A stretch of 38,684 bases of DNA from Chloroflexota bacterium (lineage in GTDB: Bacteria; Chloroflexota; Anaerolineae; Aggregatilineales; Phototrophicaceae), in NCBI GenBank assembly GCA_026713245.1, contig JAPOOU010000207.1, forward strand, positions 1-38,684. The letters are read 5' to 3'. Shown one piece after another: positions 132 to 38,684 of the stretch (position 1 is its first letter; each line of letters begins with the position of its first letter). A program made the translations under genes and the position numbers. Under the pieces are notes generated by a model. That model was not told the DNA's origin, ran no database searches, and worked only from the letters and a program-made list of their open reading frames with translations.

Positions 132-1034
132 TCAAGCCTTATAGGGCCGCGTGAACCAACTCGCGGGATCAGTCATCGGTCGGACGCTGGCGGCCAGCTC
201 GCTGATCGGCAGATTCGGCAGTTCCCAGCCCGTTTCCGCCTGATAGACCTGCGAGAACGTATCGGCCGCCTCTGGAAGACCTTCCAGGAAATACTCCATG
301 CGAGCGTATGCGACGTCACAAGCGGCGTCGCCATAGCCGGCTTCCTCCCAGTCCACCACCGCCGAAATCTCATCGCCCAGCCACAAGATATTCCCCGACC
401 AATAATCCGTGTGCTGAAAGCATGGCGTGGTCAACTGGCGCTGATGCCAATGATCGTTGATCAGACGCCAGATCATTTCACCGTCCGCATCTTCCCGCAT
501 ATAGTCTGGAATCACTCCCTCTTTTATGAACCAGGCGACTTCCACATCGTCGTTCATCAGGAAAGGCTTGTCGGCCTCGCTGAAGGGCGTCTGATGAATC
601 CGCGCCAGCATCCGCGCGTTGGTCGCCGCCATTTGGCCCCAGTGCGGCGCTTCGGTCGGCGGCTCGATCTGGCTGCCTGGCATAAACTCGGTCACAATGC
701 CGGGCAAGCCCAAAAGGCTGCCATCTCTATCGAGCAGCAGGGGCGGCGGGGCGGGAATGCCATGCTCGCGCAGCAAGCGCAGCGCGTGGAATTCGCTGAC
801 CGGCTTGTCATGCCCCTCTTCATCGTATTCGGGATTATATCGGCGCAGGATGATATTCCGCGTCTCGGCGCCTTCCGCCTCAATACGGAGCATTTGCGTG
901 AAATTGGAATAGCTGCCGGGCAGCGACTCGACGCCGCAAGAAGCGCCAGCGTGACCTAGCGCATCCAATACCGCCATGATCGTTTTCTTTGATAAGCCCG
1001 AAGTCGCAGTCGTCAACCTAAAGTCACCTTCCAT
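132..1034 (-). CDS. Aminoglycoside phosphotransferase (APH)-family small-molecule kinase
   Basis: A 300-residue protein of the APH/choline-kinase-like fold, which transfers phosphate from ATP to a small hydroxylated substrate in the cytoplasm. The catalytic loop HTDYWSGNIL (HxDxxxxN) and the metal-binding segment VVDWEEAGYGDAACDVA are both present in the C-terminal half, in the order and spacing expected. The N-terminal lobe carries IILRRYNPEYDEEG, where an ATP-contacting lysine is usually found; here only arginines are obvious. The start ATG at 1034 lies inside the 3' end of the upstream fucosidase gene (22-base overlap), which suggests translational coupling as the last gene of the cluster. 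A second ATG at residue 20 is possible. The substrate is unknown; a sugar or sugar-derived alcohol would fit the context, but this is inference. The 3' end abuts a transposase-like fragment. Confidence 0.8.
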   Translation of the reverse strand: MEGDFRLTTATSGLSKKTIMAVLDALGHAGASCGVESLPGSYSNFTQMLRIEAEGAETRNIILRRYNPEYDEEGHDKPVSEFHALRLLREHGIPAPPPLLLDRDGSLLGLPGIVTEFMPGSQIEPPTEAPHWGQMAATNARMLARIHQTPFSEADKPFLMNDDVEVAWFIKEGVIPDYMREDADGEMIWRLINDHWHQRQLTTPCFQHTDYWSGNILWLGDEISAVVDWEEAGYGDAACDVAYARMEYFLEGLPEAADTFSQVYQAETGWELPNLPISELAASVRPMTDPASWFTRPYKA

Positions 1035-2467
1035 GCTGCCGCCAGATTTGTTATGAATTCACTACTCGAGGCGTCAATTGTCAGTCCCTGCGCCGATTGC
1101 GTCCAGGTTACAGGCTGGTCGGATTCCAGCATCGACACCGATTCGATAGCCACGTCGTCGCTCAGCGCCTCAAATGTCACGGACTGTGACGGGATTCCCA
1201 ACGTCATCGCATAGACGGTCCGTCCGTCTTTGGATCGTGTGTAGCGCCGGTCGTCGGCGGTGCACTTGTCATAGGTCCAGAATCTGTGATCGTTGCGATA
1301 TTCGAATAGCTTTTCCATATCGCCTTCGGCATGAGTCGTCCAAGGCACGGTGCCGTAGATCGCCTCGCCATTCAGTTGCAGCCAGGCGCCCATTTCCAGC
1401 AGCGGCTGTCGCTGACCCTGCGGTATGCTGCCGTCCGCCCTGGGCGAGAGCGATAGCATCATGGTGCCGCCGCGCGCCGTGCAGTCGATCAGCTTGCTCA
1501 GCAGTGTATGTCCGTCGGCATAGATCTGATTTTCCACCCAGCCCCAGGACCGATCGCCGATGCGCATATCGTCGTTCCAGGGCCGCTCGTAGATCGCCGG
1601 ACGATCCCGCCCTTTTTCGAAATTGATCACGCCGAAATCGGGATGGAAATTGTACTGCATGCTGACCGGCAGTTTATTGAGCACCAGGACTTCTTTGTTC
1701 CAGCGCAAGCCTTGATTGAGATAATGCGCCAGGATTTCCAGCGCGGTCTCTTCGATGCCGTCCTCGCGGAACTTGCCGCCGTCGAACCACATCAAGTCCG
1801 GCTGATACTTGTCGATGACCTCGCGCACTTTGCTTTGCCAATCCGCGAAGAAATCAGCGAATTGGCTGGTTTGCTGCACCCAGTAGAAATCGGCGTATGC
1901 CGGATCGAAAAGGTCCCAGCCTTCCGCTATGCCGCGCTCGACTGCCTCCGCGTCAAAAGTCTGGTCCCATTGGTTCCAGCCGGCGAGAAACCAATTGAAG
2001 CCGCGCACGATATGGAAGGGCGCCACCAAGCGCAAGCCGCGCTCCCGCAGCGCCGTCGCCAGTTCGCCGTAGAGATCGCGTTTCGGTCCCATCTTGCCGA
2101 CATTCCAGCGATAGACATCGCTGTCCCATAACCCGAATCCGTCATGGTGCGCCAGGGAGAAACCGGCGTAACCGGCGCCGCTGGCTGCGAAGAGTTCCGC
2201 CCATTCGTCGGGATCATAGTGTTCGGCCGTGAAATCAGGGATGAAATCCTTATAGCCGAATTGCGCCGGCGAGCCGAATCTTTCCACGTGCTCGCGATGA
2301 ATCTCGTGCGAGGGGTCGTACATCCATTTGCCGTACCATTCGTTGCCGAAGCCCGGCACAGCGTAAACCCCCCAATGCGCGTACAAGCCGAATTTGCCAT
2401 CGCTGAACCAGTCCGGCACTCGGTGTTGCCCTAGCGAATCCCAATTCGCTTGATACGTCCCGCTCAT
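1013..2467 (-). CDS. GH29 alpha-L-fucosidase, copy 1
   Basis: A 484-residue glycoside hydrolase family 29 enzyme, which removes alpha-linked L-fucose by a retaining mechanism. Family marks are FGLYAHWGVYAVPGF (residues 26-40), the active-site stretch LAHHDGFGLWDS (105-116) and PDLMWFDGGKF (223-233), in which Asp229 is the expected nucleophile. The later GGTMMLSLSPRADGSIP (333-349) is also typical. No signal peptide is visible, so it should act in the cytoplasm on imported oligosaccharides. The ATG at 2467 is preceded by a strong AGGAG site 6 bases upstream. It lies 97 bases after the second MFS gene and overlaps the kinase gene by 22 bases. The sequence is clearly different from the two other GH29 enzymes in the window, so their linkage preferences probably differ. 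Confidence 0.93.
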   Translation of the reverse strand: MSGTYQANWDSLGQHRVPDWFSDGKFGLYAHWGVYAVPGFGNEWYGKWMYDPSHEIHREHVERFGSPAQFGYKDFIPDFTAEHYDPDEWAELFAASGAGYAGFSLAHHDGFGLWDSDVYRWNVGKMGPKRDLYGELATALRERGLRLVAPFHIVRGFNWFLAGWNQWDQTFDAEAVERGIAEGWDLFDPAYADFYWVQQTSQFADFFADWQSKVREVIDKYQPDLMWFDGGKFREDGIEETALEILAHYLNQGLRWNKEVLVLNKLPVSMQYNFHPDFGVINFEKGRDRPAIYERPWNDDMRIGDRSWGWVENQIYADGHTLLSKLIDCTARGGTMMLSLSPRADGSIPQGQRQPLLEMGAWLQLNGEAIYGTVPWTTHAEGDMEKLFEYRNDHRFWTYDKCTADDRRYTRSKDGRTVYAMTLGIPSQSVTFEALSDDVAIESVSMLESDQPVTWTQSAQGLTIDASSSEFITNLAAAWKVTLG

Positions 2468-2523: not shown

Positions 2524-2569
2524 TCCGTGTGAGCGCGGCGGACCTTCTTGCTGCCGCCGAGCGCTTATG
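2524..2569 (+). repeat. Dispersed GTGAGCGCGG repeat, partial copy C
   Basis: A short partial copy of a roughly 90-base repeat whose fuller copies lie at 17195-17286 and, inverted, at 32830-32916. The shared core here is GTGAGCGCGGCGGACCTT followed by CTGCCGCCGAGCG. It overlaps the last few codons and the stop of the MFS gene at 2565, so the C-terminal tail of that transporter is partly encoded by the repeat. Function unknown. Confidence 0.6.
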
Positions 2570-3857
2570 CTTTAGCCGTTTGCGCCGTTCTTGGCTCGTG
2601 TACCCACCATCGGAGCAATGCCGCGCCGACGATACCGCAGATTAGCGATATGACAAATAGCGCCTCGATATTAAGAGTCGCGGCTATCCATCCGCCAAGG
2701 ACAGGTCCGACAAATGTGACTGGCGCGATCAGGGTGTTGGTCAGCCCGATGAAAGTCGGTTGATCGGCCGGCGACGCGAATTCCAGCACGATATTGAAAT
2801 GAGACACGCCATCGGCAGCGATCGCGCAGGCCAGGCAGACGAAAGCCGGCAGCAGGCCGATGACGCTTTCTGCGGCTAAAGCGAAAAACGCCGCCAGCGC
2901 CATGCTGGCGGCCGAAAGCGCCAGATTACGTTTGTGCCCCCAGCGATCCCCCAGCCAGCCAAAAGCCAGGCGCATCACGGCCTGGCTGCCAATGAAAACC
3001 GCATTCAGCAATCCGACGTCCGCGCCGCCCAGGTTGAAGGCTGTATCGGCGAATACGATGTAAAAGCTCACCGCCATCATGCTCAGGTGAACCAGCGCAT
3101 AGGCGATGAGGAAGCGGCGATAATTGTCATGGCGCCGCAGCACCGCCGGCAATTTCTTAAAATAATGTCGCAAGGGAATCGCCGGCTTGACTTCGTCGCT
3201 TGCCGGTTCGCGGGTTAGCGCCAGCCAAACCCAGGATATCGCCATCACGACGCCCGCAATCATGAACAGCAGCGAGAAATTGCCCGGGAATGCCACTTGA
3301 TCCAAAATCAGGCCGACGAAATAGGCGCCGATGATCCCCATAAACATGCCGCCGCCGTCCGCCAGGCCGAAGAAAATGCCGCGCCGCCGGATGGGCACGA
3401 CCTTGCCGATCATTGTGAACCAGGCCGGCGTGACGACGCCGCCGCCAAATGCCGCTGTCGCAATCCCGATGAAGAATAGCGCCAGCGCCAGCCCGGGCGC
3501 ATCGACTGCGAAGAACAGCAACGCCAAGCCGATCAAGGGAAAGGGCAAGCGCTGCAGGGTGCCACTCAAGAGAACGACGAAGGGCAGTTTTCGCTTGAGG
3601 CCTTCGGCGTGGTTGGCGACGAAAAGCTGTGGCAGCAGAAAGGACAAGCTGAATATGCCGGGGATCAGACCGACGGCCAGCGGCGAATCGGTGAGGCGGC
3701 TGACCAGAAGCGGCATAATGGTTTCCTTGGAAACCAGGCTGATCGCCAGGGCAAAAAACATGTTGTCCAGCACATTGACCGTGAAATTCCAGTTGAGGTT
3801 TTTCTCGACAAGGCCGTCTGCATGGGGCGCCGGGGCAGCTTCAGATCTGTCGGTCAC
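2565..3857 (-). CDS. MFS transporter, tandem copy 2
   Basis: A 430-residue major facilitator superfamily protein with about 12 hydrophobic segments. It carries the MFS-like loop WLGDRWGHKRNLALS between transmembrane helices and IRRRGIFFGLADGGG in the first half. The N-terminal segment NLNWNFTVNVLDNMFFALA and HAEGLKRKLPFV are shared almost residue for residue with the upstream MFS gene, so the two are tandem paralogues. The gene starts with GTG only 3 bases after the stop of its paralogue, inside the fucosidase cluster. The likely role is uptake of fucose or fucosylated oligosaccharides, or export; the substrate cannot be read from the sequence. The C-terminal TAKA is encoded within a dispersed repeat. 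Confidence 0.88.
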   Translation of the reverse strand: MTDRSEAAPAPHADGLVEKNLNWNFTVNVLDNMFFALAISLVSKETIMPLLVSRLTDSPLAVGLIPGIFSLSFLLPQLFVANHAEGLKRKLPFVVLLSGTLQRLPFPLIGLALLFFAVDAPGLALALFFIGIATAAFGGGVVTPAWFTMIGKVVPIRRRGIFFGLADGGGMFMGIIGAYFVGLILDQVAFPGNFSLLFMIAGVVMAISWVWLALTREPASDEVKPAIPLRHYFKKLPAVLRRHDNYRRFLIAYALVHLSMMAVSFYIVFADTAFNLGGADVGLLNAVFIGSQAVMRLAFGWLGDRWGHKRNLALSAASMALAAFFALAAESVIGLLPAFVCLACAIAADGVSHFNIVLEFASPADQPTFIGLTNTLIAPVTFVGPVLGGWIAATLNIEALFVISLICGIVGAALLRWWVHEPRTAQTAKA

Positions 3858-3860
3858 GGC

Positions 3861-5156
3861 CTATGCCGCCTCTGGCCCGGGCATGGGCTGCGGCGGGATA
3901 TGGCGCGGTTCCTTAACCCAAAGCGCCAGCAGCGCTCCACCCGTGACGCCGCAAAGCAGCGTCAGGGTGAACAGGCTGTTGTAGTCGAAACTCGTCGCCA
4001 CCCAGCCGCCCAGGATGGGCGCAAAAAATGTGACGGGCGCCAGTAGCGTATTGGTTAAACCGATAAATGTCGGTTGATCTTCCGGCACGGCAAATTCCAG
4101 CACGATGTTCAAGTGTGAAATGCGGTCGCTGGCCAGCGCGGCGCCTAGCAGGATAAAAGCGGGTATCAGGTTGAAGAGATCGCTGGCGGTGATCGCTACC
4201 AGGGCCGCCAGCGCGATAGCGAAGCCAGAGATCATCAGATTGAATTTGTGCCCGCGGCGATCGCCCAGCCAACCCAGGACCAATTGCATGACGGCCTCAC
4301 TGCCGATCAAGACCGCTGTCAGCAAGGCGACATCGGCGCCGCTCAAGCTAAAGTTTTCATTGCCGTATACGATGAAGAAGCTGGTGCCCATCAAGCTCAG
4401 ACGATTGATGCAATAGCTGAGCAGAAAGCGGCGATAGTTGTGGTTCTCGCGCAGGATCTCGGGCAATTGCTTGAAATAGCGCCGTTGGGAAATCTGCTTT
4501 TTGACCACCGGGCTTTCCGGCTCGCGGTTGAGCGACAGGCCGATCCAGGAAATGCCCATGAAGACGGCGGCGATCAGAAACAGCGTGGCGAAGTTCTGCG
4601 GATAGCCGAAATCGTCCAGGATGATGCCGACGAAATAAGCGCCGATGATACCCATCAGCGTGCCAAGGCCCGAACTGAGGCCGAAGAATATGCCGCGCCG
4701 ATTGACCGGCAAGACCTTGCCAATCATGCTGAACCAGGCTGGCGTGGCTACGCCTGCGCCGAAGGCGCCCAAGCCGATCACCAGATACAGGCAGAGCAGG
4801 GCAAGCAGCGGTGCGCTCTCGGCGAAGAGCAGTATCGCAAAGCCTGCAAAGAGATACGGCACGCGCTCTAGAACGCCGCCGATAAACATCACGAAGGGCA
4901 GCTTGCGCTTCAAGCGTTCGGCGTGATTGGCCGCGAACAACTGCGGCAAATAAAACGAGATGCTGAAGATCGCCGGTACCAGGCCGATGGCGATCTTGGA
5001 ATCGGTCAAGTTGCTGACCAGCAAAGGCGTGATCGTCTCGCGCGAGATCACGCTGAAGGCCAGGGTGATGAAGGTGATGTCAATCAAATTGACCGAAAAA
5101 TTCCAGGGCAAGTTCCTGCGAACAAAGGGATCAATTTTGCGCGCCAATTTACTCAC
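3861..5156 (-). CDS. MFS transporter, tandem copy 1
   Basis: A 431-residue inner-membrane MFS protein with about 12 predicted helices. It shares with the following gene the blocks RRGIFFGL, MGIIGAYFVGIILDDFG, HAERLKRKLPFV and DQPTFIGLTNTLLAPVTF, over the full length and with almost no length difference, which indicates an old tandem duplication. The start is a GTG at 5156 that overlaps the stop of the upstream fucosidase by 8 bases, so translation is probably coupled. Sitting directly between two cytoplasmic fucosidases, it is a good candidate for the sugar importer that feeds them. This is inferred from position only. A loop reading LGDRRGHKFNLM corresponds to the conserved MFS cytoplasmic loop. 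Confidence 0.88.
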   Translation of the reverse strand: MSKLARKIDPFVRRNLPWNFSVNLIDITFITLAFSVISRETITPLLVSNLTDSKIAIGLVPAIFSISFYLPQLFAANHAERLKRKLPFVMFIGGVLERVPYLFAGFAILLFAESAPLLALLCLYLVIGLGAFGAGVATPAWFSMIGKVLPVNRRGIFFGLSSGLGTLMGIIGAYFVGIILDDFGYPQNFATLFLIAAVFMGISWIGLSLNREPESPVVKKQISQRRYFKQLPEILRENHNYRRFLLSYCINRLSLMGTSFFIVYGNENFSLSGADVALLTAVLIGSEAVMQLVLGWLGDRRGHKFNLMISGFAIALAALVAITASDLFNLIPAFILLGAALASDRISHLNIVLEFAVPEDQPTFIGLTNTLLAPVTFFAPILGGWVATSFDYNSLFTLTLLCGVTGGALLALWVKEPRHIPPQPMPGPEAA

Positions 5157-6543
5157 CTGTACCGGAGATTTTCAGCGAATGGGCGTGAGCCTGCGGCAGG
5201 TCCTGCGGCAGTTGGATCGCCAGATCGGCGCTGCTCTGGCGCCAGGTCAAATCGGCGTCATGGCCCAACAGTTGAACGATCGCTCCGGCAGGCGCTTCCA
5301 GCCCTTCAATGACGATTTCGCTCTCGCTGGGCGCGCCTAGCAGCGTGACATAGATCGCTTCGTCAGTCGTTGTGAAGCGCAGATCCAGCCCTTGGCTTGT
5401 CTTGCCATTGGCGCGGCGCCAGGGACGCGTATCGAAGATCGCTTCGCCGTTGCGGTCCAGCCAGCGTCCCAGGGCGCGCAGTCGCCCCGCCTGGTTCTCC
5501 GGAATGCTGCCATCGGCTCTTGGCCCCACATTGAGCAGCAGATTGCCATTTTTGCTGACGATATCGACGAACATATGGATAAGCTCGTCTTCGGCCAGCA
5601 AGCGCTCATCGCCTTCGTCGCGGTTGTAGCCGAAGGAGTGCCCGATCCCGCGGCAGCATTCCCATTTCAGTTCCTGGATATCGTCGAAGGTGGCGTATTC
5701 GGGCGTGATGTAGTCGTAGTGAGGTCCACGCGGCGTCGAGAGCGGTTCGCCGGCCGTCGGAACCTGATCGCGGGACTGCGTGAACCGATCGTTGATCACC
5801 CCTTCGGGTACGCTGTTGTAGTAGTAGGCGAAAAGCTCGCCGAGATCGGCGTCCTTCGGGTAACCGATGTCGTTCCACATGATCGACGGCTGGTAGCGGT
5901 CGATCAATTCCTTCCAATGTTTCACCGAGTATTCGACGAACTCGGGACTCTGCACGATCGTGCCCCACACATCTTGCACCTGCTCGACGCGCGCTTCATT
6001 GAACGACCAGTCCAGGCCGCCGGAATAGTAGATTGCCATGCGCATGCCGCGCGCGCGCACGGCATCGGTTAACTCGCCAACGACATCGCGCTGCGTCTGG
6101 TAATCCGCCTTGCGCGGGCAGGGATACTCGCTCGGCCACAAGGTGAAGCCATCGTGATGCTTCGAGGTCAGGACGACATAGCGGGCGTTGACCTCGCTAA
6201 ACAGCCCCGCCATCTCCTCCGGTTGCCAGCGCTTCAGCACCGAATTGAAACCGGCGGCAAAGTCGTCGTACGAGAAGTCGCTGCCGTAATTCTTGTTGTG
6301 ATATTCGCGCGTGGGGCTGTCCGCGAATTTGAGCGTGTTCAAGTACCACTCGGCGTAGGAGTTGTTCCGGAACCAGTTGCTCATGTCGCCGCTCTCGAAT
6401 ACCTCGCCGATGTCGCCGCCATGCGGCGCCCAGGCTGGTACCGAATACAAGCCCCAGTGAATAAAAATGCCCAGCTTGGCATTCATATACCAGTCCGGGA
6501 CCTCATGCGTGCGAACCGATTCTATTGTGGGTTCAAATGCCAT
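5149..6543 (-). CDS. GH29 alpha-L-fucosidase, copy 2
   Basis: A 464-residue GH29 family enzyme. Visible marks are LGIFIHWGLYSVPAW (residues 24-38), VLTSKHHDGFTLWPS (124-138), and PSIMWNDIGYPKDAD (219-233), with Asp225 as the expected nucleophile; NGNLLLNVGPRADGSIP (332-348) follows. The long segment DIGEVFESGDMSNWFRNNSY and the AEWYLNT block are typical of standard-length bacterial alpha-L-fucosidases. No signal peptide is seen, so it is probably cytoplasmic. The ATG at 6543 has AGGA 8 bases upstream. It follows the propeller gene by 67 bases and overlaps the first MFS gene by 8 bases. Together with the other two GH29 genes it makes fucose release the clearest function of this region. Confidence 0.94.
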   Translation of the reverse strand: MAFEPTIESVRTHEVPDWYMNAKLGIFIHWGLYSVPAWAPHGGDIGEVFESGDMSNWFRNNSYAEWYLNTLKFADSPTREYHNKNYGSDFSYDDFAAGFNSVLKRWQPEEMAGLFSEVNARYVVLTSKHHDGFTLWPSEYPCPRKADYQTQRDVVGELTDAVRARGMRMAIYYSGGLDWSFNEARVEQVQDVWGTIVQSPEFVEYSVKHWKELIDRYQPSIMWNDIGYPKDADLGELFAYYYNSVPEGVINDRFTQSRDQVPTAGEPLSTPRGPHYDYITPEYATFDDIQELKWECCRGIGHSFGYNRDEGDERLLAEDELIHMFVDIVSKNGNLLLNVGPRADGSIPENQAGRLRALGRWLDRNGEAIFDTRPWRRANGKTSQGLDLRFTTTDEAIYVTLLGAPSESEIVIEGLEAPAGAIVQLLGHDADLTWRQSSADLAIQLPQDLPQAHAHSLKISGTGE

Positions 6544-6610: not shown

Positions 6611-7513
6611 TTACACTGCTACGCGCTGCACGCTGCCATCCGCCATGCCCAGCAGCAAGGCACTGCCGTCTTCGCTCTTTGCGGCGACATGAACGTCCGC
6701 CGCCGCCAGTTGCCGCCAACTACTGTCGCCGGTCTCATAGGCCAACGCCGAGTCGTCCACTTGAATCGCCAGCCCCGCCAGGGTTGGCAGGCAAACTATT
6801 GCATTGACCGCGCCCTGGCAGCGATAAAACGATTCCCAAGTCAAGCCGTCATCATCCGAGCGCAACAACCCATGCGACTCCGTGCCGGCCAATATAGTTC
6901 GGTCGTCGGCATATTCGGGTGAAAAGGCCAGGCTAAGCACCGCTTCGTCGCCGGCGGGCATGGTGAGATCCTCCCATAGCCGTCCGCCATTGACGCTGCG
7001 GTATACGCCGCTGCTCGTACCCGCCATGACCGCGCCATCGACGGAGTACTCCGGCGAAAGCGCCAGACAAAAGATCTTGTGATCAAACAAGCCAAAGTTG
7101 AAGGCCGCCCAGCTCTGCCCACCGTCGTCGGAGAGAAATATGCCGTCCTCGTAGCTGCCCGCCAGTACGCGCCGGTCGTTGGCAAAACCGGGCGAAAGCG
7201 CCAGACATGTGACAAGTGGCGCGGGCACGCGCATGGCCAGGGCTGCCCAGGTTGCGCCACCATCTTCGCTGCGGGCGACGCCTCCGTTGATGCCTGTCAA
7301 TATCAAGCCATCCCGGGAGAAACTCGGCGACATCGCGATGTCAAGCGTCGCGATTGCACCCTCGGGCTGCCAGCCTTGATAGAGACTGCGCGCCGCGCCA
7401 TTCGAGGACGCCAGGCGATACAAACCGCTCTGTCGCGCGACTAAGTAAGCCCCGTCAACTTCGGCTATCGAGTAGGTCCGGTCTACGGTCGCGTGTTCGC
7501 GCTCTTCGCTCAT
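6611..7513 (-). CDS. Four-Asp-box beta-propeller (BNR/Ycf48-like) protein
   Basis: A 300-residue protein made of BNR/sialidase-type propeller blades. Four Asp-box motifs are visible: SEDGGATW (82-89), SDDGGQSW (128-135), SVNGGRLW (173-180) and SDDDGLTW (219-226), each preceded by a blade core of the type LALSPGFANDRRVLAGS. No catalytic residues of a sialidase are apparent, and there is no signal peptide, so a cytoplasmic scaffold or binding role is more likely than glycan hydrolysis. The ATG at 7513 lies one base after the stop of the GroEL-like gene, and its GGAG site is inside the end of that gene, so the two are almost certainly co-translated. The resemblance to assembly factors such as Ycf48/HCF136 is at the fold level only. 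The partner and function are unknown. Confidence 0.82.
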   Translation of the reverse strand: MSEEREHATVDRTYSIAEVDGAYLVARQSGLYRLASSNGAARSLYQGWQPEGAIATLDIAMSPSFSRDGLILTGINGGVARSEDGGATWAALAMRVPAPLVTCLALSPGFANDRRVLAGSYEDGIFLSDDGGQSWAAFNFGLFDHKIFCLALSPEYSVDGAVMAGTSSGVYRSVNGGRLWEDLTMPAGDEAVLSLAFSPEYADDRTILAGTESHGLLRSDDDGLTWESFYRCQGAVNAIVCLPTLAGLAIQVDDSALAYETGDSSWRQLAAADVHVAAKSEDGSALLLGMADGSVQRVAV

Positions 7514-7514
7514 G

Positions 7515-9122
7515 CTAGGGCTCCGTCATCGTTTCCGGATCTCGATGCAAGACCAGCACATCAATTGTCAATGCCAGCGCGGCGCTGGTGACGGCGCGCT
7601 GCAGCGCTTCAACTTGCACACCCGCCACATCAAGAATGCCGGCCCGCGCCATTTCGACGAATTCGCCTTTCATAATGTCGAAGCCGAATCCGCAGTCGTA
7701 TAATCCCAGTTGCGCCAGGATCTCGCTGGCGTCGTAGCCGCCGTTATCGAGCAAGGAACGTATGGGCGCTTCCAGCGCCGCTGCCATGATCTGCCGCGCC
7801 GCTCGCGCTTCGGGACTCTCGTTGTCGCCGGCCGCATCCCGCAAGCCGCGTCCGCAGTTCAAAAGTGAGACGCCGCCGCCCGGGATCACGCCACCCGCGA
7901 GCGCGAGCCGCAAAGCGCGGATGGTACGTTCCGCCACATCCTTGCGCCCTTTGATTTCGTCATCGGCGATGCCGCCGACTTGCACCGTGGCTACGCCTCC
8001 GTTTAGCATTCCTAGCCGCTTGAGCAGGCGCTCGCGATCATCGTCGTCTTCCGCCTGCGTGTGAGCTTGCCGCAGCATGCGTACCTGGCGCCGAATCCGG
8101 ATCGGATCGCCCTCGCCGCTGGCGAAGCCGAAGTTCTTGTCGTCCGCCCAAACCCAGCGGGCATGACCGAAGTCGCCGTCGTTGACTTCGTCCAGGGATT
8201 GGCCGGCGGCGCCGAGTATTGGCCTGCCACCGGTCAACAAGGCGATATCCCGGCAGGCCTGGAGCAATTCGTCTTGCAGATAGCTGTCAATCTTGACCAC
8301 GACCGTCTGAATCTTGCTGCGCAAACGGTCATCGAGCACCACCGATATGGCCGTATCCGATATGGATTTGACGATCAACAGCAGCTTGCTGATTTCGCTG
8401 CGCAGCGCCAATTGCATCAGCGGTACCAGTTCGCTCGGTTCTTCGATTTCCATATCCGTGACAAGAATCGCGGCGTCCTCCATTTCGGCAACCAGCCGAG
8501 CCGTACCGCGAAGCATCTCTTTGGATTGGACGCCGCCCTTCCAATAGGCGCCGTCGACATAGCTGTGTTCCATGCCCCGTCCATGACCGGCGCGGATATC
8601 AACTTGTCCGTATTGACCGACCGTGTCGATCACCTCGCCCAGCACAGACGCCATTTCTTCGTCGTAACAGACAGATAAGGCGATCGCCTCGAGTTCTTTG
8701 GCCTTGGTCAGAATCTGCGCCTGGGAGAGCAGGGCATCGGTCAACTGTGGCAGGAGTTCCCTCAAGTTCGCTCGCAGCCGCATCGCGTCGGCGCCGGCGG
8801 CGATGAAGCGCAGTCCCTCGTTGTAGATGCTCTCATAGAGAACGGCGGCGGTGGCCGCGCCGTCGCCGACTTGTTGATGCACCTGCCACAGTACCTGTCG
8901 CAAGAGCATGGCGCCGACGTCATCTTCTCTGTCCGCCAGCGCGATAATACGCCTGGCGATCAGGCCGCCGTCATCCAGTATCTCGAACTTCGCCTGGTTT
9001 TGAGCGACCAGGCGACGAGGCAGGGGGCCCAGCGTCGGACGAATGGCGTTTCCCAGGACCGCTACGCCGCGGCGAATCGCTTCTTGCGTCCGTGGCTCGT
9101 GGATGACTTTTGGAACGGGCAT
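7515..9122 (-). CDS. Divergent GroEL-like chaperonin paralogue with altered ATPase site
   Basis: A 535-residue group I chaperonin homologue that aligns end to end with GroEL: TLGPLPRR (30-37), LDDGGLIARRI (49-59), VGDGAATAAVL (85-95), GGVATVQVGG (375-384), GGVIPGGGVSL (410-420) and MARAGILDVAGV (491-502). Aligned by hand to E. coli GroEL, Asp52 and Asp87 are kept (D51, D87), but Asp398, needed for ATP hydrolysis, falls on Arg399, and the TTT after GDG is AAT. The GGM-rich C-terminal tail is absent. No co-encoded groES and no CIRCE element (GAGTGCTAA-type repeat) was seen upstream. It is the first gene of the fucosidase/MFS cluster and is coupled to the propeller gene. It probably folds or binds a specific client rather than serving as the housekeeping chaperonin; this is inference. 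Confidence 0.88.
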   Translation of the reverse strand: MPVPKVIHEPRTQEAIRRGVAVLGNAIRPTLGPLPRRLVAQNQAKFEILDDGGLIARRIIALADREDDVGAMLLRQVLWQVHQQVGDGAATAAVLYESIYNEGLRFIAAGADAMRLRANLRELLPQLTDALLSQAQILTKAKELEAIALSVCYDEEMASVLGEVIDTVGQYGQVDIRAGHGRGMEHSYVDGAYWKGGVQSKEMLRGTARLVAEMEDAAILVTDMEIEEPSELVPLMQLALRSEISKLLLIVKSISDTAISVVLDDRLRSKIQTVVVKIDSYLQDELLQACRDIALLTGGRPILGAAGQSLDEVNDGDFGHARWVWADDKNFGFASGEGDPIRIRRQVRMLRQAHTQAEDDDDRERLLKRLGMLNGGVATVQVGGIADDEIKGRKDVAERTIRALRLALAGGVIPGGGVSLLNCGRGLRDAAGDNESPEARAARQIMAAALEAPIRSLLDNGGYDASEILAQLGLYDCGFGFDIMKGEFVEMARAGILDVAGVQVEALQRAVTSAALALTIDVLVLHRDPETMTEP

Positions 9123-9661: not shown

Positions 9662-10978
9662 ATGAGCACCAAACAGTTGTCACGGCGCAATTTCCTTAAG
9701 CTGGCGGCGGCGTCGAGTACCGGCGCTGTGGTCGGTTATCTGGGTCCTTTGAGCAACATCGCCAGCGCGCAGGACACGGTCGAGTTGACTTTCGGGCGCC
9801 ACTGGGAGGCTGCCTTCCGCCCGCGCCAGGCCGAGTACGATGAAGGCTTCATGGAGCGGCATCCGGACATCAAGATCAATATCACCTACAATACCTGGGC
9901 AGACCACAATAACGTGGTGCCGGCCTGGGCGGCCGCCGGCACTTTGCCGGATATCATCTATGTCCATGGCAGCCGCGCCACCCCTTGGGCGCACGAGGGC
10001 ATCATCATCGACATCCACGATATCGTCACAGCCGACGAAGAGTTCAACGTCGACGGCATGTGGGAAGAATCGGTGCGCCTCTATCGCGTCAACGGCCGCA
10101 TCCACGCGCTGCCCTACGATCATGGTCCCATCATCCTTGGCTACAATGTCGATATGTTCGACGAAGCCGGCATGGATTACCCCACCGAGGACTGGACGAT
10201 GGAAGACCTTGCTGCCGCCGCCGCCACGCTGACCAATGCCGACATGGGCATCTATGGCTGGGACGGCCGCTTCAACCTGGGCAACGGCGCGAATGGCTTC
10301 TTCTTGAACGCTTGGGGCGCAACCAACATGAACGACGACGAAACCGAAATGACCGTCGATACCCCGGAAGCCCGGGAAGCGATGAACTTCTGGTACGGTC
10401 TGATTCATGAAGAGAATTCCGCGCCCAGCGGCACCGAAGCGGAAGCCTTCCCCAATCAGCATCCCTTCCGCGCTGGCGCCGCCGCCATGTCGCACATCGC
10501 CACCTGGGATACGCCCAGCATGCGCGCGCAAGCGCCCTTCAATTGGGATGTCGCGCCTGTGCCCATGGGCGCCGATGGCACCCGCGCCACGACTTCCTTC
10601 GGCAGCGGCTATGGCATCACGCCGACCAGCGACAAACCCGACGTCGCCTGGCGTTATCTGCGCGAATACCTCTCAGTCGATGGCATGATCTTCATGTGGA
10701 GCCTCTCGGGCCGTGGCTCGCCGGCGCGTCCGGAAGGCTTGGAAGCCTGGCTGACATCGGATCCGGCGCCGCCCAACGGGCGCTATTTCCTGGAAGCCAT
10801 GTTTGACTATGCCACGACGGGCCACCCGTACTCGTCCCTCGCTTCGGCGGAGGTGAGCAATATCCTGGCGCGCGAAGCAAATCTCTTGCGCCTGGGCGAA
10901 GCAAGCGTCGACGAAGTCATCGCCACCATCATGGAAGAAGGGCAGGCCGCTCTCGACGCTGTCGCCGAAGACATGTAG
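9662..10978 (+). CDS. ABC sugar transporter, extracellular solute-binding protein (Tat-exported)
   Basis: A 438-residue family 1 (MalE/UgpB-type) solute-binding protein. The N-terminus has a twin-arginine signal, SRRNFLK at residues 7-13, followed by a hydrophobic stretch and a probable cleavage site after ASA (34-36). The mature part begins DTVELTFGRHWE and shows the family pattern: TLPDIIYVHGS, GRIHALPYDHGPIILGYN, an aromatic-rich ligand-facing surface (WGDGRF-like, NFWYGL, MWSLSGRGSP) and a C-terminal hinge helix region. It captures a carbohydrate outside the membrane and delivers it to the two permeases downstream. In this setting a fucose-containing oligosaccharide is likely, but this is inferred. 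The gene is separated from the permeases by a strong hairpin, which often favours higher levels of the binding protein. Confidence 0.92.
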   Translation: MSTKQLSRRNFLKLAAASSTGAVVGYLGPLSNIASAQDTVELTFGRHWEAAFRPRQAEYDEGFMERHPDIKINITYNTWADHNNVVPAWAAAGTLPDIIYVHGSRATPWAHEGIIIDIHDIVTADEEFNVDGMWEESVRLYRVNGRIHALPYDHGPIILGYNVDMFDEAGMDYPTEDWTMEDLAAAAATLTNADMGIYGWDGRFNLGNGANGFFLNAWGATNMNDDETEMTVDTPEAREAMNFWYGLIHEENSAPSGTEAEAFPNQHPFRAGAAAMSHIATWDTPSMRAQAPFNWDVAPVPMGADGTRATTSFGSGYGITPTSDKPDVAWRYLREYLSVDGMIFMWSLSGRGSPARPEGLEAWLTSDPAPPNGRYFLEAMFDYATTGHPYSSLASAEVSNILAREANLLRLGEASVDEVIATIMEEGQAALDAVAEDM

Positions 10979-11064: not shown

Positions 11065-11979
11065 ATGTTTCGGCGCTTAACACGACCCATATCGCCAAGC
11101 GCCCGGCGCGAAGAGCGAATCTTTTATCTGTTCATCTTGCCCTGGCTGATCGGCTTGGTCTTATTCAACGCAGGTCCTATCCTCGGTATGCTGGGGCTAA
11201 GCTTCACCGATTGGCGCATCTCGCTGGATGATCTTCAATTCATCGGCTTGGAAAACTATAACGCGCTTTTCGCTGACCCCATCTTCTGGACCTCCGTGGG
11301 CAACACGCTTTATATCGTCGTCGGCAGAGTGATATTCGGCACGGCATTCGCGCTATTGCTGGCGATACTGCTCAACCAGAAGGTGCCTGGCATCCCCTTC
11401 TTTCGCGCTGTCTATTACCTGCCAACGGTTACGGCGGGGGTGGCGGTGGCGCTAGTGTGGATCTGGATTTTCAATCCACGCCTCGGCATCTTGAATTACA
11501 CCTTGAAGCAGATTGGCATCCAGGGCCCGCCCTGGATATACAGCTCGACCTGGGTCAAGCCGTCGCTTATCCTGATGAGCTTGTTTCAGGTAGGACCCAA
11601 TATGATCATCCTGCTGGCGGGCTTGCAGGGCGTCCCCAAAGAACTTTATGAATCAGCTGAAATTGACGGCGCCGGCAATTGGGCGAAATTCCGCAACGTC
11701 ACCCTGCCCATGCTTTCCCCGGTACTCTTTTTCGTGATCATTATTTCTGTCGTGAGTTCATTCCAGAATTTCACTGAAATCCGCGTGATGACAGAAGGCG
11801 GACCGGGCGAATCGAGCAATGTCTTGATCTGGTACTTATGGGAGAACGCCTTCATTTTCCTGAAATTGGGCATCTCCGCCGCCGTCGCCTGGATCATGTT
11901 TCTCATTCTCATGGCGCTGACCGGCATCCAGTTCCGCGTGGGCAGGCGCTGGGTTTACTATGAGGGTGAAGCGCGATGA
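11065..11979 (+). CDS. ABC sugar transporter permease, MalF/UgpA type
   Basis: A 304-residue integral membrane protein with about six helices, of the binding-protein-dependent transport family (PF00528). The N-terminal RREERIFYLFILPWLIGLVL and the loop SFTDWRIS..FIGLENYNALFAD are typical of the MalF/UgpA branch. The cytoplasmic EAA loop, which docks the ATPase, reads ELYESAEIDGAGNWAKFRN about two thirds along, followed by VTLPML. It pairs with the next gene, whose start overlaps its stop by 4 bases. No ATPase gene is present in the window; such systems commonly share an MsmX/UgpC-like ATPase encoded elsewhere. The Shine-Dalgarno site is weak, which fits translation at a lower level than the binding protein. 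Confidence 0.93.
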   Translation: MFRRLTRPISPSARREERIFYLFILPWLIGLVLFNAGPILGMLGLSFTDWRISLDDLQFIGLENYNALFADPIFWTSVGNTLYIVVGRVIFGTAFALLLAILLNQKVPGIPFFRAVYYLPTVTAGVAVALVWIWIFNPRLGILNYTLKQIGIQGPPWIYSSTWVKPSLILMSLFQVGPNMIILLAGLQGVPKELYESAEIDGAGNWAKFRNVTLPMLSPVLFFVIIISVVSSFQNFTEIRVMTEGGPGESSNVLIWYLWENAFIFLKLGISAAVAWIMFLILMALTGIQFRVGRRWVYYEGEAR

Positions 11980-12872
11980 CGACTCTTTCGCCCCCCAAGC
12001 GCAAGCATAGCACCGCCTGGCGCAAGTCAATCAAAGGACGCCGCGCCATCGGCATTATTCTCACCTTCGCCTTGCTGATCCCGATTGGCATCGTCTTCGT
12101 CATGCCCTTCATCGTCATGGTCTCGACCGCGCTGAAACCACTGAACCAAGTTTTCGCTTTTCCGCCGCGACTGATCCCCGAAACCCCGCAATGGCAGAAT
12201 TTTCCTGACGGTTGGTATGGGTATGGCTACGTCGACTTCACCACTTGCACCTGGAATTCGCTCAAGATCACCGTCAACAACATCATCGGCAATCTGGTCT
12301 CCTGCACGCTGGCGGCTTATGCCTTCGCGCGCTTGAAGGCGCGCGGCAAGAACTTTTTCTTCGCCATCGTTTTGGCGACCATGCTACTGCCCACGGAAGC
12401 GCTCGTTGTTCCTCAGTATGTTCTTTTTAACAGGTTCGGCTGGCTGGATACCCACCTGCCCTTGATGGTGCCGCCCTGGTTCGGCTGGCCTTTCTTCATC
12501 TTCCTGCTTCGGCAATTCTTCCTCACTATCCCGGAAGAGTTGGTTGACGCCGCCAAGATTGACGGCGCCGGGCACGCGCGCATCCTGGTGCAGATTTTCG
12601 TCCCGCTGTCCAAACCGGCGCTGGCGACCCTGGCCATCTTCGCCTTCATCGGCAATTGGAACAACTTCTTCGGTCCACTGCTCTATCTGCGCACGCCCGA
12701 CGTGCAGACGCTGCCGGTTTGCCTGGTCCAGTATCAAGGCGCTTACGGCAATACCGACTGGCACTTGATGATGGCGGTAGCGACGATCGCGGTCATCCCG
12801 GTCTTGCTGATCTTCATCTTCGGCCAGCGTTACTTCGTCGAAGGCATCGCCACCTCGGGCGTCAAGGGCTAA
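11976..12872 (+). CDS. ABC sugar transporter permease, MalG/UgpE type
   Basis: A 298-residue membrane protein of the MalG/UgpE branch, with about six helices. The EAA loop reads EELVDAAKIDGAGHARILVQ and is followed by IFVPLSKPALATLAIF, both characteristic. The stretch ATMLLPTEALVVPQYVLFNRFGWLDTHLPLM, before the EAA loop, is the usual signature of this branch. The start ATG overlaps the stop of the other permease by 4 bases (ATGA-type junction), so the two are translationally coupled and form the heterodimeric membrane channel. After the stop there is a 282-base gap that contains two GC-rich hairpin repeats before the FG-GAP gene, which may or may not be in the same transcript. Confidence 0.93.
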   Translation: MTTLSPPKRKHSTAWRKSIKGRRAIGIILTFALLIPIGIVFVMPFIVMVSTALKPLNQVFAFPPRLIPETPQWQNFPDGWYGYGYVDFTTCTWNSLKITVNNIIGNLVSCTLAAYAFARLKARGKNFFFAIVLATMLLPTEALVVPQYVLFNRFGWLDTHLPLMVPPWFGWPFFIFLLRQFFLTIPEELVDAAKIDGAGHARILVQIFVPLSKPALATLAIFAFIGNWNNFFGPLLYLRTPDVQTLPVCLVQYQGAYGNTDWHLMMAVATIAVIPVLLIFIFGQRYFVEGIATSGVKG

Positions 12873-21664: not shown

Positions 21665-23038
21665 TCACCTGTCTTCATCTACCGCAAGCCCGGACAAGAC
21701 TCGCAACAGGTCCGCCTCTTGCTCGGGCAAAACTGTGCGCGGATCCAGCAGCACATCACTCTTCGCAACGCGGGCTATCACCGGTGGATCCGCTTGCCGA
21801 AGCCCCGCGACAAAACGAGCCGGAAAAGCAGCCGGGATCGCCAGTAGGCGCGTGGGAAGATCTGTGCCCGGCAAACTGCCCCCGCCGACCGTCGATCGCC
21901 CATCCACAACCTTGCCGCCGATTTGCGCCGCCCAGCGCTCGGCTGTCGTACCGATTTCTTTGAGCGGCCGCGCGATCATTCGCCAAATTGGCACCTGTTG
22001 CATAGCGACGTCGCCAAGATAATGTTGCAAGGTCGCGATGAGCGCGGCATAGGTCAGCTTGTCAACGCGCATCGCGCGCGCAAGCGGGTGACGCTTCAGT
22101 CTCGCGATCAATTCCGCCTTCCCAACAATGATTCCCGCCTGCGGTCCGCCAAGCAGTTTATCCCCGCTAAAACAGATCAGATCAAATCCCGCCGAGACAC
22201 TGTCCTGTATCGTCGGCTCGTATGCCAATCCGAATTCTCTGGTATCGATGAGTGTACCGCTGCCAAGGTCGTCAACCGCCAGCACTCCACGCTGGCGGGC
22301 GCATGCGGCCAATTGCCGCAAGGATGGCTGCTCAACGAAGCCGAGCTGGCGAAAGTTTGAGGCATGAACGCGCAGCAACATGGCGGTTTGCTCATTCACC
22401 ACCGCTTCAAAATCCTCAATTCGCGTACGGTTTGTTGTGCCCACTTCAACCAGCGTCGCTCCGCTCTCTTGCATGATGGCTGGAATACGAAATCCGCCGC
22501 CGATTTCAACCAACTGACCCCGTGAAATGATAACCTCGCGACCGCTCGCCAGCCCACTCAAGATCAGAATCAACGCGGCGGCATTGTTGTTCAGCACAAT
22601 CGCATCTTCGGCGCCGGTCAAGGCGCGCAGGAGTTTCGCGGCGTGAACCAGACGGCTACCGCGCTCCCCCTCTTCCAGGTCGTATTCCAGCGTATTGTAC
22701 GCGCCGGCCACGGCAATCATTGCCGCCTGAGCTGCCTTAGACAATGGCGCCCGCCCCAGATTCGTGTGGATTATTACGCCCGTCGCATTGATGACGGGGC
22801 GCAGGCTCGCCTGAAAACTCATTCCCAATCCGTAAATAACCCGATCCAACACTGCGGATTCCGATATGTCGAGCTTCTGCTTGGCGAGGATGCCCCGACG
22901 CGCCGACTCCAGCTCAGCGCGGATTGCCTCAACCACCAATCGGTGACTATAGTCTTTGATCAAGTTTTGGACACGCTTGTGTGACAGCAGTCGATCGACG
23001 GACGGCAGCTTGCGCAACCAATCCCGCTTATCGTCCAT
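21665..23038 (-). CDS. selA: L-seryl-tRNA(Sec) selenium transferase
   Basis: A 457-residue PLP enzyme that turns Ser-tRNA(Sec) into Sec-tRNA(Sec) with selenophosphate. The match is full length: LPSVDRLL (11-18), VINATGVIIHTNLGRAPLS (82-100), YNTLEYDLEEGERGSR (114-129), VVLNNNAAA-like LNNNAAALIL (149-158), AVDDLGSGTLID (254-265) and CFSGDKLLGGPQAGI (289-303) with Lys294 as the PLP-binding residue. It overlaps the upstream membrane-protein gene by 11 bases and ends about 25 bases before the M24 start. No selB, selD or tRNA-Sec gene was recognised in the window and no gene here shows a clear in-frame TGA, so the rest of the pathway and its clients must be elsewhere if the gene is active. Confidence 0.95.
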   Translation of the reverse strand: MDDKRDWLRKLPSVDRLLSHKRVQNLIKDYSHRLVVEAIRAELESARRGILAKQKLDISESAVLDRVIYGLGMSFQASLRPVINATGVIIHTNLGRAPLSKAAQAAMIAVAGAYNTLEYDLEEGERGSRLVHAAKLLRALTGAEDAIVLNNNAAALILILSGLASGREVIISRGQLVEIGGGFRIPAIMQESGATLVEVGTTNRTRIEDFEAVVNEQTAMLLRVHASNFRQLGFVEQPSLRQLAACARQRGVLAVDDLGSGTLIDTREFGLAYEPTIQDSVSAGFDLICFSGDKLLGGPQAGIIVGKAELIARLKRHPLARAMRVDKLTYAALIATLQHYLGDVAMQQVPIWRMIARPLKEIGTTAERWAAQIGGKVVDGRSTVGGGSLPGTDLPTRLLAIPAAFPARFVAGLRQADPPVIARVAKSDVLLDPRTVLPEQEADLLRVLSGLAVDEDR

Positions 23039-37024: not shown

Positions 37025-37131
37025 CCGCTCCGTTGGCTGCGGTCCATTATCGACAATATCCAAGATCCGGCATCCCGGCGTGATTGGATCATTTCCAAGC
37101 GCATCGGAGATTATCAGAAAGAAATTCGCTA

Positions 37132-38196
37132 ATGAAGATCAGGTTAGTCGCTGTAGTAGCAGCCGCGCTTACCCTGTGCGGCCTTGCATCGGCGCAAATT
37201 GACAACTGCTGTTTTGTTGACAGGCAATGCAGCAGCAACCAGGAATGGACGAACGGCTACTGGGCATTCCAGAATGGGCAATGCGTCGCCCCCGCGTCGT
37301 CCGGGCCGCCCGCCAACTCGTCCGCGCCGGTGGATAACTGCTGCGGCATCGACCGACAATGCAGTACCGACGCGGAGTGGCTAAGCGGCTGGCAGGCCTA
37401 TCAGAACAATCAATGCGCCGCCCCCGCGCCGCCTCAGCCAGCGCCGCCCACCCAGCCCGTGGCCAGCACGCCGGCAACCGTAGACAACTGCTGCTTCGTT
37501 GACCGACAATGCAGTACCGACTTGGAGTGGATGGCCGGCTGGCACGCCTATCAGAACAATCAATGCGCCGCGCCCGCGCCGCCCCAGCCGCAGTCATCCC
37601 CAGCGCCCGTGGGCAATATCCCCGCGAATGTAGACAACTGCTGCCGTGTGAATCGTCAATGCGCGACCGAACGAGATTGGACGAATGGCTGGGCAGCCTA
37701 CAAGTTTTTACAGTGCCGTACGGATATTCCAATTCCAATTGATGGATCGCCAACCTTCATCAACTGGATGTCAGGATACTTGAATCAGCTGAGGGACGGT
37801 GCGCCGCAATGGTATCACTATGTCATCACTGGACTGAGGAAGATAAGAGAGGTGGTGGGGACAATGCCAGGATCGGGCAAAAGCTATATCAACGTGTTTC
37901 TAGATACGGGGACAGCCAATTATCACAGCAATTTGATGTGGGAAATGATCAACACCCCCCAAGAGGCACAGATCCCGTTTTTCTTACTCTCGTCGCTCGT
38001 TCACGAAGCCTGCCATGTACACCGCTACAATGCCGGATTGCATACAAACATCGTGTGGAAAAACGAACTGCCCTGTTATCAAAAGGAACTTGAGCTTGCG
38101 CAGTTTTATGACCCTACCTGGGTACCGCATCTTCAAAATGTTATCGTACAAATCAAGACTCCAGGTTCAGGGTGGCGGAAGGTCGCTGAAGAATAA
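37132..38196 (+). CDS. Exported cysteine-pair repeat protein with C-terminal HExxH (zincin-like) domain
   Basis: A 354-residue protein starting at ATG 37132 with signal peptide MKIRLVAVVAAALTLCGLAS and likely cleavage before QIDNCC. Four repeats of about 28 residues follow at 23-51, 68-95, 117-145 and 168-195. Each has the pattern DNCCxVDRQCSTDxEWxxGW and then AYQNNQC, with four cysteines, so probably two disulfides per unit. They are joined by Pro/Ala/Ser-rich linkers. The last 160 residues form a separate domain with SSLVHEACHVHRYNAG; HEACH (291-295) fits the zinc-binding HExxH, and a downstream Glu in KNELPCYQKELEL could be the third ligand. It should act outside the cell, perhaps as a protease anchored by the repeats. 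I cannot assign a known family. A 62-residue frame upstream that ends at the ATG is not considered a gene. Confidence 0.8.
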   Translation: MKIRLVAVVAAALTLCGLASAQIDNCCFVDRQCSSNQEWTNGYWAFQNGQCVAPASSGPPANSSAPVDNCCGIDRQCSTDAEWLSGWQAYQNNQCAAPAPPQPAPPTQPVASTPATVDNCCFVDRQCSTDLEWMAGWHAYQNNQCAAPAPPQPQSSPAPVGNIPANVDNCCRVNRQCATERDWTNGWAAYKFLQCRTDIPIPIDGSPTFINWMSGYLNQLRDGAPQWYHYVITGLRKIREVVGTMPGSGKSYINVFLDTGTANYHSNLMWEMINTPQEAQIPFFLLSSLVHEACHVHRYNAGLHTNIVWKNELPCYQKELELAQFYDPTWVPHLQNVIVQIKTPGSGWRKVAEE

Positions 38197-38222
38197 GGTC
38201 GCCGCTTTCTGTGGTATATTCC
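38197..38222 (+). promoter_or_regulatory. Duplicated promoter-like block before the second cysteine-repeat gene
   Basis: GGTCGCCGCTTTCTGTGGTA followed by TATTCC is nearly the same as 37001-37026 before the first gene. TATATT (38215-38220) is the -10; the matching -35 is GAATAA instead of TTGACG, so this copy may be weaker. It begins at the first base after the stop of the upstream gene. Confidence 0.5.
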
Positions 38223-38253
38223 AATCCATATGCCTCACGGCGGGAGATAATCT

Positions 38254-38684
38254 ATGCGAAGCAAGTTTATCGCAGTTCTGATCGCGTTCTGTACGCTCAT
38301 CGCCCTGGCATCGGCGCAAATTGACAACTGCTGTTATGTCGACCGGCAATGCAGCAGCGACCAGGAATGGACGAACGGCTATTGGGCATTCCAGAATGGG
38401 CAATGCGCCGCCCCCGCGCCGTCCGGGCCGCCCGCCAACTCGTCCGCGCCGGTGGATAACTGCTGCGGCATCGACCGACAATGCAGTACCGACGCGGAGT
38501 GGCTAAGCGGCTGGCAGGCCTATCAGAACAAGCAATGCGCCGCGTCCGCGCAGCCTCAGCAAGCGGCGCCCACCCAGCCCGTGGCCAGCACGCCGGCAAC
38601 CGTAGACAACTGCTGCTTCGTTGACCGACAATGCAGTACCGACGCGGAGTGGCTAAGCGGCTGGCAGGCTTATCAGAACAATCA
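38254..38684 (+). CDS. Second exported cysteine-pair repeat protein (5' part, runs off the window)
   Basis: An open frame from the ATG at 38254, with GGGAGA 7 bases upstream, that continues past the window edge (143 codons seen). It starts MRSKFIAVLIAFCTLIALAS and then AQIDNCCYVDRQCSSDQEW, a signal peptide followed by the same repeats as its neighbour. Three units are visible (DNCCYVDRQC, DNCCGIDRQC, DNCCFVDRQC). It is collinear with the first gene at a constant offset of 1122 bases from the ATG onward, and a 111-base block (37299-37409 and 38421-38531) is identical by eye, so the two are a recent tandem duplication or are kept alike by gene conversion. Whether it too ends in an HExxH domain cannot be seen. 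Confidence 0.85.
   Translation, partial: MRSKFIAVLIAFCTLIALASAQIDNCCYVDRQCSSDQEWTNGYWAFQNGQCAAPAPSGPPANSSAPVDNCCGIDRQCSTDAEWLSGWQAYQNKQCAASAQPQQAAPTQPVASTPATVDNCCFVDRQCSTDAEWLSGWQAYQNN

Follow-up and report, generated by a model that had tools for sequence, protein, structure and literature searches.

Chaperonins are taken to be general ATP-driven folding machines. GroEL carrying the D398A substitution is reported to bind ATP normally, to keep 3% of the ATPase activity, and still to encapsulate and fold (PMC3326522), hence the loss of Asp398 need not abolish chaperone action, but it would end fast cycling. Here we analyzed a stretch of 38,684 nucleotides from a Chloroflexota bacterium (contig JAPOOU010000207.1 of assembly GCA_026713245.1; the whole stretch is referred to as the window), in which a divergent GroEL paralogue of 535 amino acids, CPN, is encoded at positions 7515..9122 on the minus strand, as seen from the list of open reading frames (ORFs), Pfam and the alignments. 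CPN lacks Asp398, and its gene lies by genes for a propeller protein and for sugar uptake. We tentatively favor a reading in which this selected paralogue would form a ring that works independently of GroES, hydrolyses hardly any ATP, and holds or folds components of the uptake system, most likely the binding protein before its export by the twin-arginine translocation (Tat) system. The features most telling on the job of CPN, namely the neighboring propeller and the loci of sugar importers, were absent from an earlier note made from the letters alone (the sequence-only reading).

A GroEL paralogue with arginine at the position of Asp398

The end-to-end similarity to GroEL claimed in the sequence-only reading was borne out: solved GroELs were the best structure matches of CPN, with an alignment near full length, and Pfam Cpn60_TCP1 (PF00118) matched with 131.5 bits against a cut-off of 34.3, as befits the group I chaperonin fold, while the Pfam scan detected no second domain. 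The predicted structure shows a GroEL fold complete with its three domains; Arg399 is placed within helix 387-410 of this model. Arg399 (codon CGT, positions 7926..7928 on the minus strand, counted from 9122) aligns with Asp398 of GroEL by MAFFT, by hmmalign (with a profile built from twelve canonical GroELs alone) and by hhalign. A register shift that would bring Asp395 onto position 398 was considered and rejected, since none of the three methods gives it. By hhalign, Asp51 and Asp87 of CPN correspond to Asp52 and Asp87 of GroEL. A loss of Asp52, suggested by a first MAFFT alignment in which Asp51 was one column off, was rejected on the basis of a later MAFFT alignment and hhalign; the offset is explained by a one-residue insertion near residue 60, which became visible through Asp398-keeping intermediates (NDGATIARRIVELPD) and hhalign. 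Residues of the Mg/nucleotide site are retained (Asp87, GDG, Gly-Pro 32-33, Gly414-416 and Asp495), the motif GDGAAT stands in place of GDGTTT, and the C-terminus has no GGM tail, the last two also as first read from the letters.

The GroEL equivalog model TIGR02348 gave CPN 306.7 bits against the NCBI cut-off of 582.1, the ordinary GroEL of the same genome reaching 794.7; two Asp398-keeping paralogues, with 552.5 and 529.7, likewise fell below the cut-off. The chlamydial models NF038370 and NF038369 gave 77.7 and 135.6 bits against a cut-off of 600, and the thermosome/CCT (group II/III) models matched only partially, in the C-terminal region, scoring no more than 40.2 bits where the cut-offs are 400 or higher.

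The genome has four cpn60 genes, i.e., one ordinary groES-groEL pair and three divergent paralogues, which are CPN (subtype A), one of subtype B on contig C136 and one of subtype C on contig C101. Its sole groES match adjoins the ordinary groEL, and a controlling inverted repeat of chaperone expression (CIRCE) with 1 mismatch lies upstream of that pair. No CIRCE was found in the window with up to 3 mismatches allowed, in agreement with the sequence-only reading, which had seen neither groES nor CIRCE next to CPN.

The CPN gene is under purifying selection and in use, because its ratio of nonsynonymous to synonymous substitution rates (dN/dS) is about 0.2 against five close relatives. A member was found, at E 1e-150 or better, in 46/121 sampled genomes of the order (29 in the genus, 8 in the family's other genera and 9 in other families). 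Every genus genome seen (29/29) has at least one, and no genus genome is among the no-match genomes listed (a further 55 no-match genomes stand outside that list). These counts by genome cover Chloroflexota; one paralogue match, P0205, was labelled Spirillospora by its source. A duplicate that has lost a catalytic residue could be decaying and heading for loss, but with the low dN/dS, a length of 535 amino acids in most of the 120 subtype A matches listed, a member in all the genus genomes seen and Asp87 never lost in 393 sequences, this is hardly credible.

Loss of Asp398 among the relatives of CPN

The residues of interest were counted in 393 sequences (392/393 distinct), comprising CPN and its relatives. 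The subtype A set holds CPN and the 120 database matches listed (121 in total); 120 matches were also listed for each of subtypes B and C, with one short B row dropped (B, 119; C, 120), and 33 further loci of the order were added (D, 14; E, 2; others, 17). The subtypes were set by score and place, not by the tree. By hmmalign, Asp398 was present in 0/393 sequences and Asp87 in 393/393. At position 398, subtype A has Arg in 119/121 and Ala in 2/121, so that relatives with the same arginine, which the sequence-only reading had proposed to seek, are the rule; subtype B has Arg in 47, Ala in 35, Lys in 14, Ser in 10, Asn in 6 and others in 7, and subtype C has Arg in 111, Lys in 8 and Gly in 1. 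The subtype D loci L143-L146 and L149-L156 carry Lys52 and Glu398, which inverts the Asp-Arg pair seen in subtype A, and the other 2/14 'D' loci, L147 and L148, carry Asn-Arg (L147 clusters with L119 in the tree). Within subtype B the residues at 52 and 398 are associated (Fisher p 4.5e-9, uncorrected for ancestry).

By analogy with GroEL D398A, in which ATP is bound and split very slowly, a CPN ring would probably bind ATP and hardly hydrolyse it. Alternatively, ATP would still be hydrolysed via another residue (e.g., Glu397 or Asp51), and CPN would be an extra foldase co-expressed with the sugar genes. The Asp52 equivalent is indeed kept in most of subtype A (101/121 by hmmalign and 115/121 by MAFFT, the A counts of the 52/398 pair shifting somewhat with the method) and in 120/120 of subtype C, Asp87 is universal, Glu397 is near-fixed in subtype A (117/121), and ATP hydrolysis is reported for a phage chaperonin that lacks two of the apo salt bridges missing in CPN (PMC7185714). 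Nevertheless, position 398 is basic in 119/121 A and 119/120 C sequences, and the acid at position 52 is often gone in subtype B (Ser or Asn in 84/119), which renders an active foldase rather unlikely. The suggestion in the sequence-only reading of a slow or locked, specialised chaperonin outside housekeeping is in line with the absence of Asp398 from all 393 sequences, the ordinary groES-groEL pair elsewhere in the genome and the dN/dS value; its 'locked' part meets a counter-example in that phage protein.

A tree of 72 cpn60 rows, built by a quick method with support from the Shimodaira-Hasegawa-like approximate likelihood ratio test (SH-aLRT), splits these paralogues from canonical GroEL with support 100; they are a second chaperonin lineage of Chloroflexota. 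Basal members of the lineage retain Asp398, some of them near a groES gene, and the GGM tail is missing already in Asp398-keeping members. Among 20 phylum paralogue loci, hand-picked from ranked matches in 301 phylum genomes and hence not a random sample, residue 398 is Asp in 10, Arg in 5, Glu in 2, Ala in 2 and Ser in 1. Asp398 was lost at least twice, after the lineage had split from ordinary GroEL: the fewest-change count on the tree gives two losses, one in L080 and L085, which have Glu at 398 and GNG for GDG, and the other in a clade of 52 rows (support 97), none of which has Asp398.

The L080 (8707-10362) and L085 (7566-9419) genes form a separate lineage with Asp87 changed to Asn (GNG) and Glu398, lie beside a gene for a propeller protein of ~700 amino acids, and probably represent an independent ATPase loss. 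The basal paralogues L082 and L083 keep Asp398, lie near groES and have NDG at 51-53, like group II chaperonins; they may belong to a complete second GroEL system elsewhere in the Chloroflexota.

Residues that we take to contact substrate and GroES are also changed. CPN has Glu at the position of Tyr203, which is presumably such a contact, and Glu or Asp stands there in 112/121 A and 101/119 B sequences, other positions remaining hydrophobic; Y203E is reported to abolish binding in E. coli GroEL. An acid at the Val264 position, presumably a further contact, was counted in 113/121 A sequences in one MAFFT alignment; hhalign agrees for CPN, and a second MAFFT alignment is gapped there. Much of the substrate/GroES surface remains hydrophobic, most of all in subtype C.

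A propeller gene follows CPN

The gene next to CPN, PROP (positions 6611..7513, minus strand), starts 1 nt past the CPN stop and encodes a BNR/Asp-box protein of 300 amino acids that is predicted to form a 7-bladed propeller (ORF list, Pfam, prediction and homology). A propeller gene lies downstream of the chaperonin gene in 30/30 close relatives (subtype A, on the same strand), 16/16 B and 2/2 E loci. A first count was strand-blind; the strand-aware recount finds one convergent locus, L114. The ORF calls at L111 and L112 overlap or are broken, and some neighbouring ORFs are wrong-frame fillers; the neighbor counts rest on homology matches. The genome itself has 15 matches to the propeller family, and the two strong ones both adjoin chaperonin paralogues.

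The propeller would be either a partner of the chaperonin, as a lid or adaptor, or its client. In the latter case, CPN would be a bacterial counterpart of CCT, for which the folding of 7-bladed WD40 propellers has been reported (PMC8544692). The constant linkage in subtypes A, B and E, the two strong family members beside chaperonin paralogues, and a propeller at 3/10 Asp398-keeping phylum loci all speak for a propeller client. Yet a propeller is present at 0/21 C and 0/14 D loci and absent from 11/20 phylum loci, although subtypes C and D have lost Asp398 as well and also lie by importers; moreover, folding would be an unusual task for a ring with hardly any ATP hydrolysis. We consider this possibility unlikely.

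Sugar importers and twin-arginine binding proteins

Beyond PROP, the same-strand run continues with FUC2, a GH29 alpha-L-fucosidase (5149..6543; Pfam and homology), MFS2, a major facilitator superfamily (MFS) transporter that overlaps FUC2 by 8 nt (3861..5156; homology), MFS1, a second MFS transporter (2565..3857; homology), and FUC1, a second GH29 alpha-L-fucosidase (1013..2467; Pfam), all on the minus strand. On the plus strand, divergent from CPN, are genes for the solute-binding protein of an ATP-binding cassette (ABC) importer with the twin-arginine signal SRRNFLKLAAA (9662..10978; Pfam and motif) and for permeases 1 (11065..11979) and 2 (11976..12872) of the importer (both by homology). 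This layout, i.e., a Tat-type binding protein and two permeases upstream and divergent, is that of the A loci, and in 29/30 of them a GH29 fucosidase follows the chaperonin and propeller genes, usually accompanied by two MFS transporter genes and another fucosidase gene. Importer permeases were found within 7 kb in 20/30 A loci; of the remaining ten, L008, L033 and L034 are not truncated, whereas the other seven stop at a contig edge within ~1 kb upstream. In the other subtypes the chaperonin gene is often the last of a binding protein-permease-permease operon. A same-strand permease gene ends at most 200 nt upstream in 20/21 C, 12/14 D, 2/2 E, 9/16 B and 6/17 other loci, and in 0/10 Asp398-keeping phylum loci; the junction is 4-5 nt (mostly 5) or an overlap in 20/21 C loci and a 3-nt overlap in 8/14 D loci. 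Farther downstream of the B paralogue of this genome is a GH32-type gene, and the C paralogue is followed by a PhyH gene. The end of contig C261 and the start of contig C101 seem to hold the halves of one Tat-type binding-protein gene, at the subtype C locus.

The importer set of the genome is large, with 87 SBP_bac_1 matches (85 above the cut-off) in 4.87 Mb, and by our arithmetic about 1/4 of the genes are then located no more than 7 kb from such a match, so a nearby importer alone means little; the few-base permease-chaperonin junctions mean more. Alternatively, the ring may no longer fold proteins; it would then be a nucleotide sensor or a scaffold by which the importer is tethered or regulated, and the propeller would serve as its adaptor. 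Such a scaffold is compatible with the terminal place of the chaperonin gene in the operons, with the altered contact residues at Tyr203 and Val264, and with a motif scan, limited to motifs, that found no ABC ATPase in the sequence stretches around any of the 120 chaperonin loci. Importers of this type, however, often share one ATPase encoded elsewhere, so the missing gene says little; much of the contact surface is still hydrophobic, foremost in subtype C, and CPN has no other Pfam domain. A scaffold therefore appears unlikely.

A recognised binding protein of more than 380 amino acids was found at 66/120 chaperonin loci, and the nearest one carried a twin-arginine signal in 64/66. This count includes nearest binding proteins more than 4 kb away (L075, L086, L114 and L125) and two Asp398-keeping loci (L073 and L075). 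Of the two non-Tat loci, L093 is a start-codon artefact, with the motif farther in, and L016 is of the Sec type; at L069, L072 and L076 the first search had missed the binding proteins, and RR motifs are present there too. In this genome, 15/81 unlinked binding proteins with an available N-terminus have a Tat signal, and 5/30 binding proteins have one both in G353 (30 of 38 sampled) and in G311 (30 of 35 sampled), one of the latter being linked. The association between Tat signal and chaperonin linkage is strong when relatives are counted as independent (Fisher p 2.6e-24). The linked proteins are scattered in the binding-protein tree, with 10 label changes. The genome has TatC, and the Tat system is reported to export proteins that are already folded.

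Other genes of the window

A gene at 21665-23038 encodes selenocysteine synthase SelA (PF03841, 439.8 bits). At 37084-38684, two tandem genes encode proteins with repeated Cys-rich units (DNCC..DRQC), the first of which had no Pfam match.

Proposed role of CPN

We tentatively propose that residue 398 pairs with residue 52 and would thereby hold helix M down over the nucleotide, so that the ring would stay closed or cycle slowly. The client may be the Tat-type binding protein, which would have to fold in the cytoplasm because Tat-exported proteins fold prior to export; the chaperonin would guard it until folded, in keeping with its gene company. The likeliest job would be that of a slow or one-shot cage for the neighboring uptake system, with the propeller as a partner in some subtypes.

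Several observations weigh against such a cage. The phage chaperonin mentioned above remains active without the two salt bridges, and the charges at 83/327 are reversed rather than lost in 2/30 A loci, an acid-base pair being retained there in 15/21 C and 14/14 D loci. The CPN model leans to the closed state, which, lacking a control model of ordinary GroEL, does not count as strong evidence. The propeller is lacking in subtypes C and D and occurs at only 3/10 Asp398-keeping phylum loci. The importer genes of subtype A are transcribed divergently from the chaperonin gene rather than in one operon with it, and at L008, L033 and L034 (3/30 A) the 6 kb upstream are free of importer permeases. The tree-based pair test of the Tat link was not significant (6 supported pairs; on average same 2.6, opposite 0.3; median p 0.5), so the Tat client is kept as an inference; shared ancestry of the binding proteins may explain the link, and in this genome 15 Tat binding proteins are unlinked, with no chaperonin gene next to them.

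A more far-reaching version of the cage proposal appears quite improbable: a transporter-specific second chaperonin system of Chloroflexota, unlike any known, in which a 52-398 salt-bridge latch would replace the ATP switch, a 7-bladed propeller would cap the seven-fold ring in place of GroES, and the cage, encoded within importer loci, would fold their Tat binding proteins ahead of export. No publication describing such a chaperonin was found in the open-licence literature searched. If the favored cage is correct, this lineage, with Asp398 dropped at least twice, the groES link mostly lost, a frequent propeller neighbor and transport operons in or near which its genes lie, would illustrate how a chaperonin can turn into a component dedicated to a different system. 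The series from Asp398-keeping to Asp398-lost members lets one ask which step of the GroEL cycle goes first, and the CPN-PROP gene pair would be a simple bacterial model of a chaperonin-propeller partnership.

Comparison with known systems

CPN shares with GroEL, and with its D398A variant, which likewise has no Asp398, the whole-length fold, Asp87, Gly-Pro, Gly-Gly-Gly and Asp495. It differs from GroEL by an identity of only ~25-28% to the ten best GroEL/Hsp60 structures, the arginine at 398, the absence of an adjoining groES gene and the loss of the apo salt bridges. Chlamydial GroEL2 and GroEL3 are also duplicated group I chaperonins, and are reported to be divergent in the GroES-binding and ATP regions (PMC1892554). 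CPN lies far under the cut-offs of the NCBI models for them. To our knowledge, no propeller or importer link exists for these proteins. The vertebrate proteins BBS6, BBS10 and BBS12 act with CCT on the BBSome. Like CPN, they are thought to bind ATP with changed hydrolysis residues (PMC2846930), but they are eukaryotic and CCT-related, whereas CPN is a bacterial group I protein. With CCT and the 7-bladed WD40 propellers, a chaperonin is likewise tied to a 7-bladed propeller (PMC8544692). CCT, however, is active, general and hetero-oligomeric, and the tie between CPN and its BNR/Asp-box propeller is one of gene linkage only. The redox enzyme maturation proteins (REMPs), e.g., TorD, DmsD and NarJ, are small proteins for redox enzymes. 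As dedicated Tat chaperones (PMC3316669), they would have the guarding of a client before export in common with CPN, to which they are unrelated; here, the guardian would be a chaperonin and its clients sugar-binding proteins.
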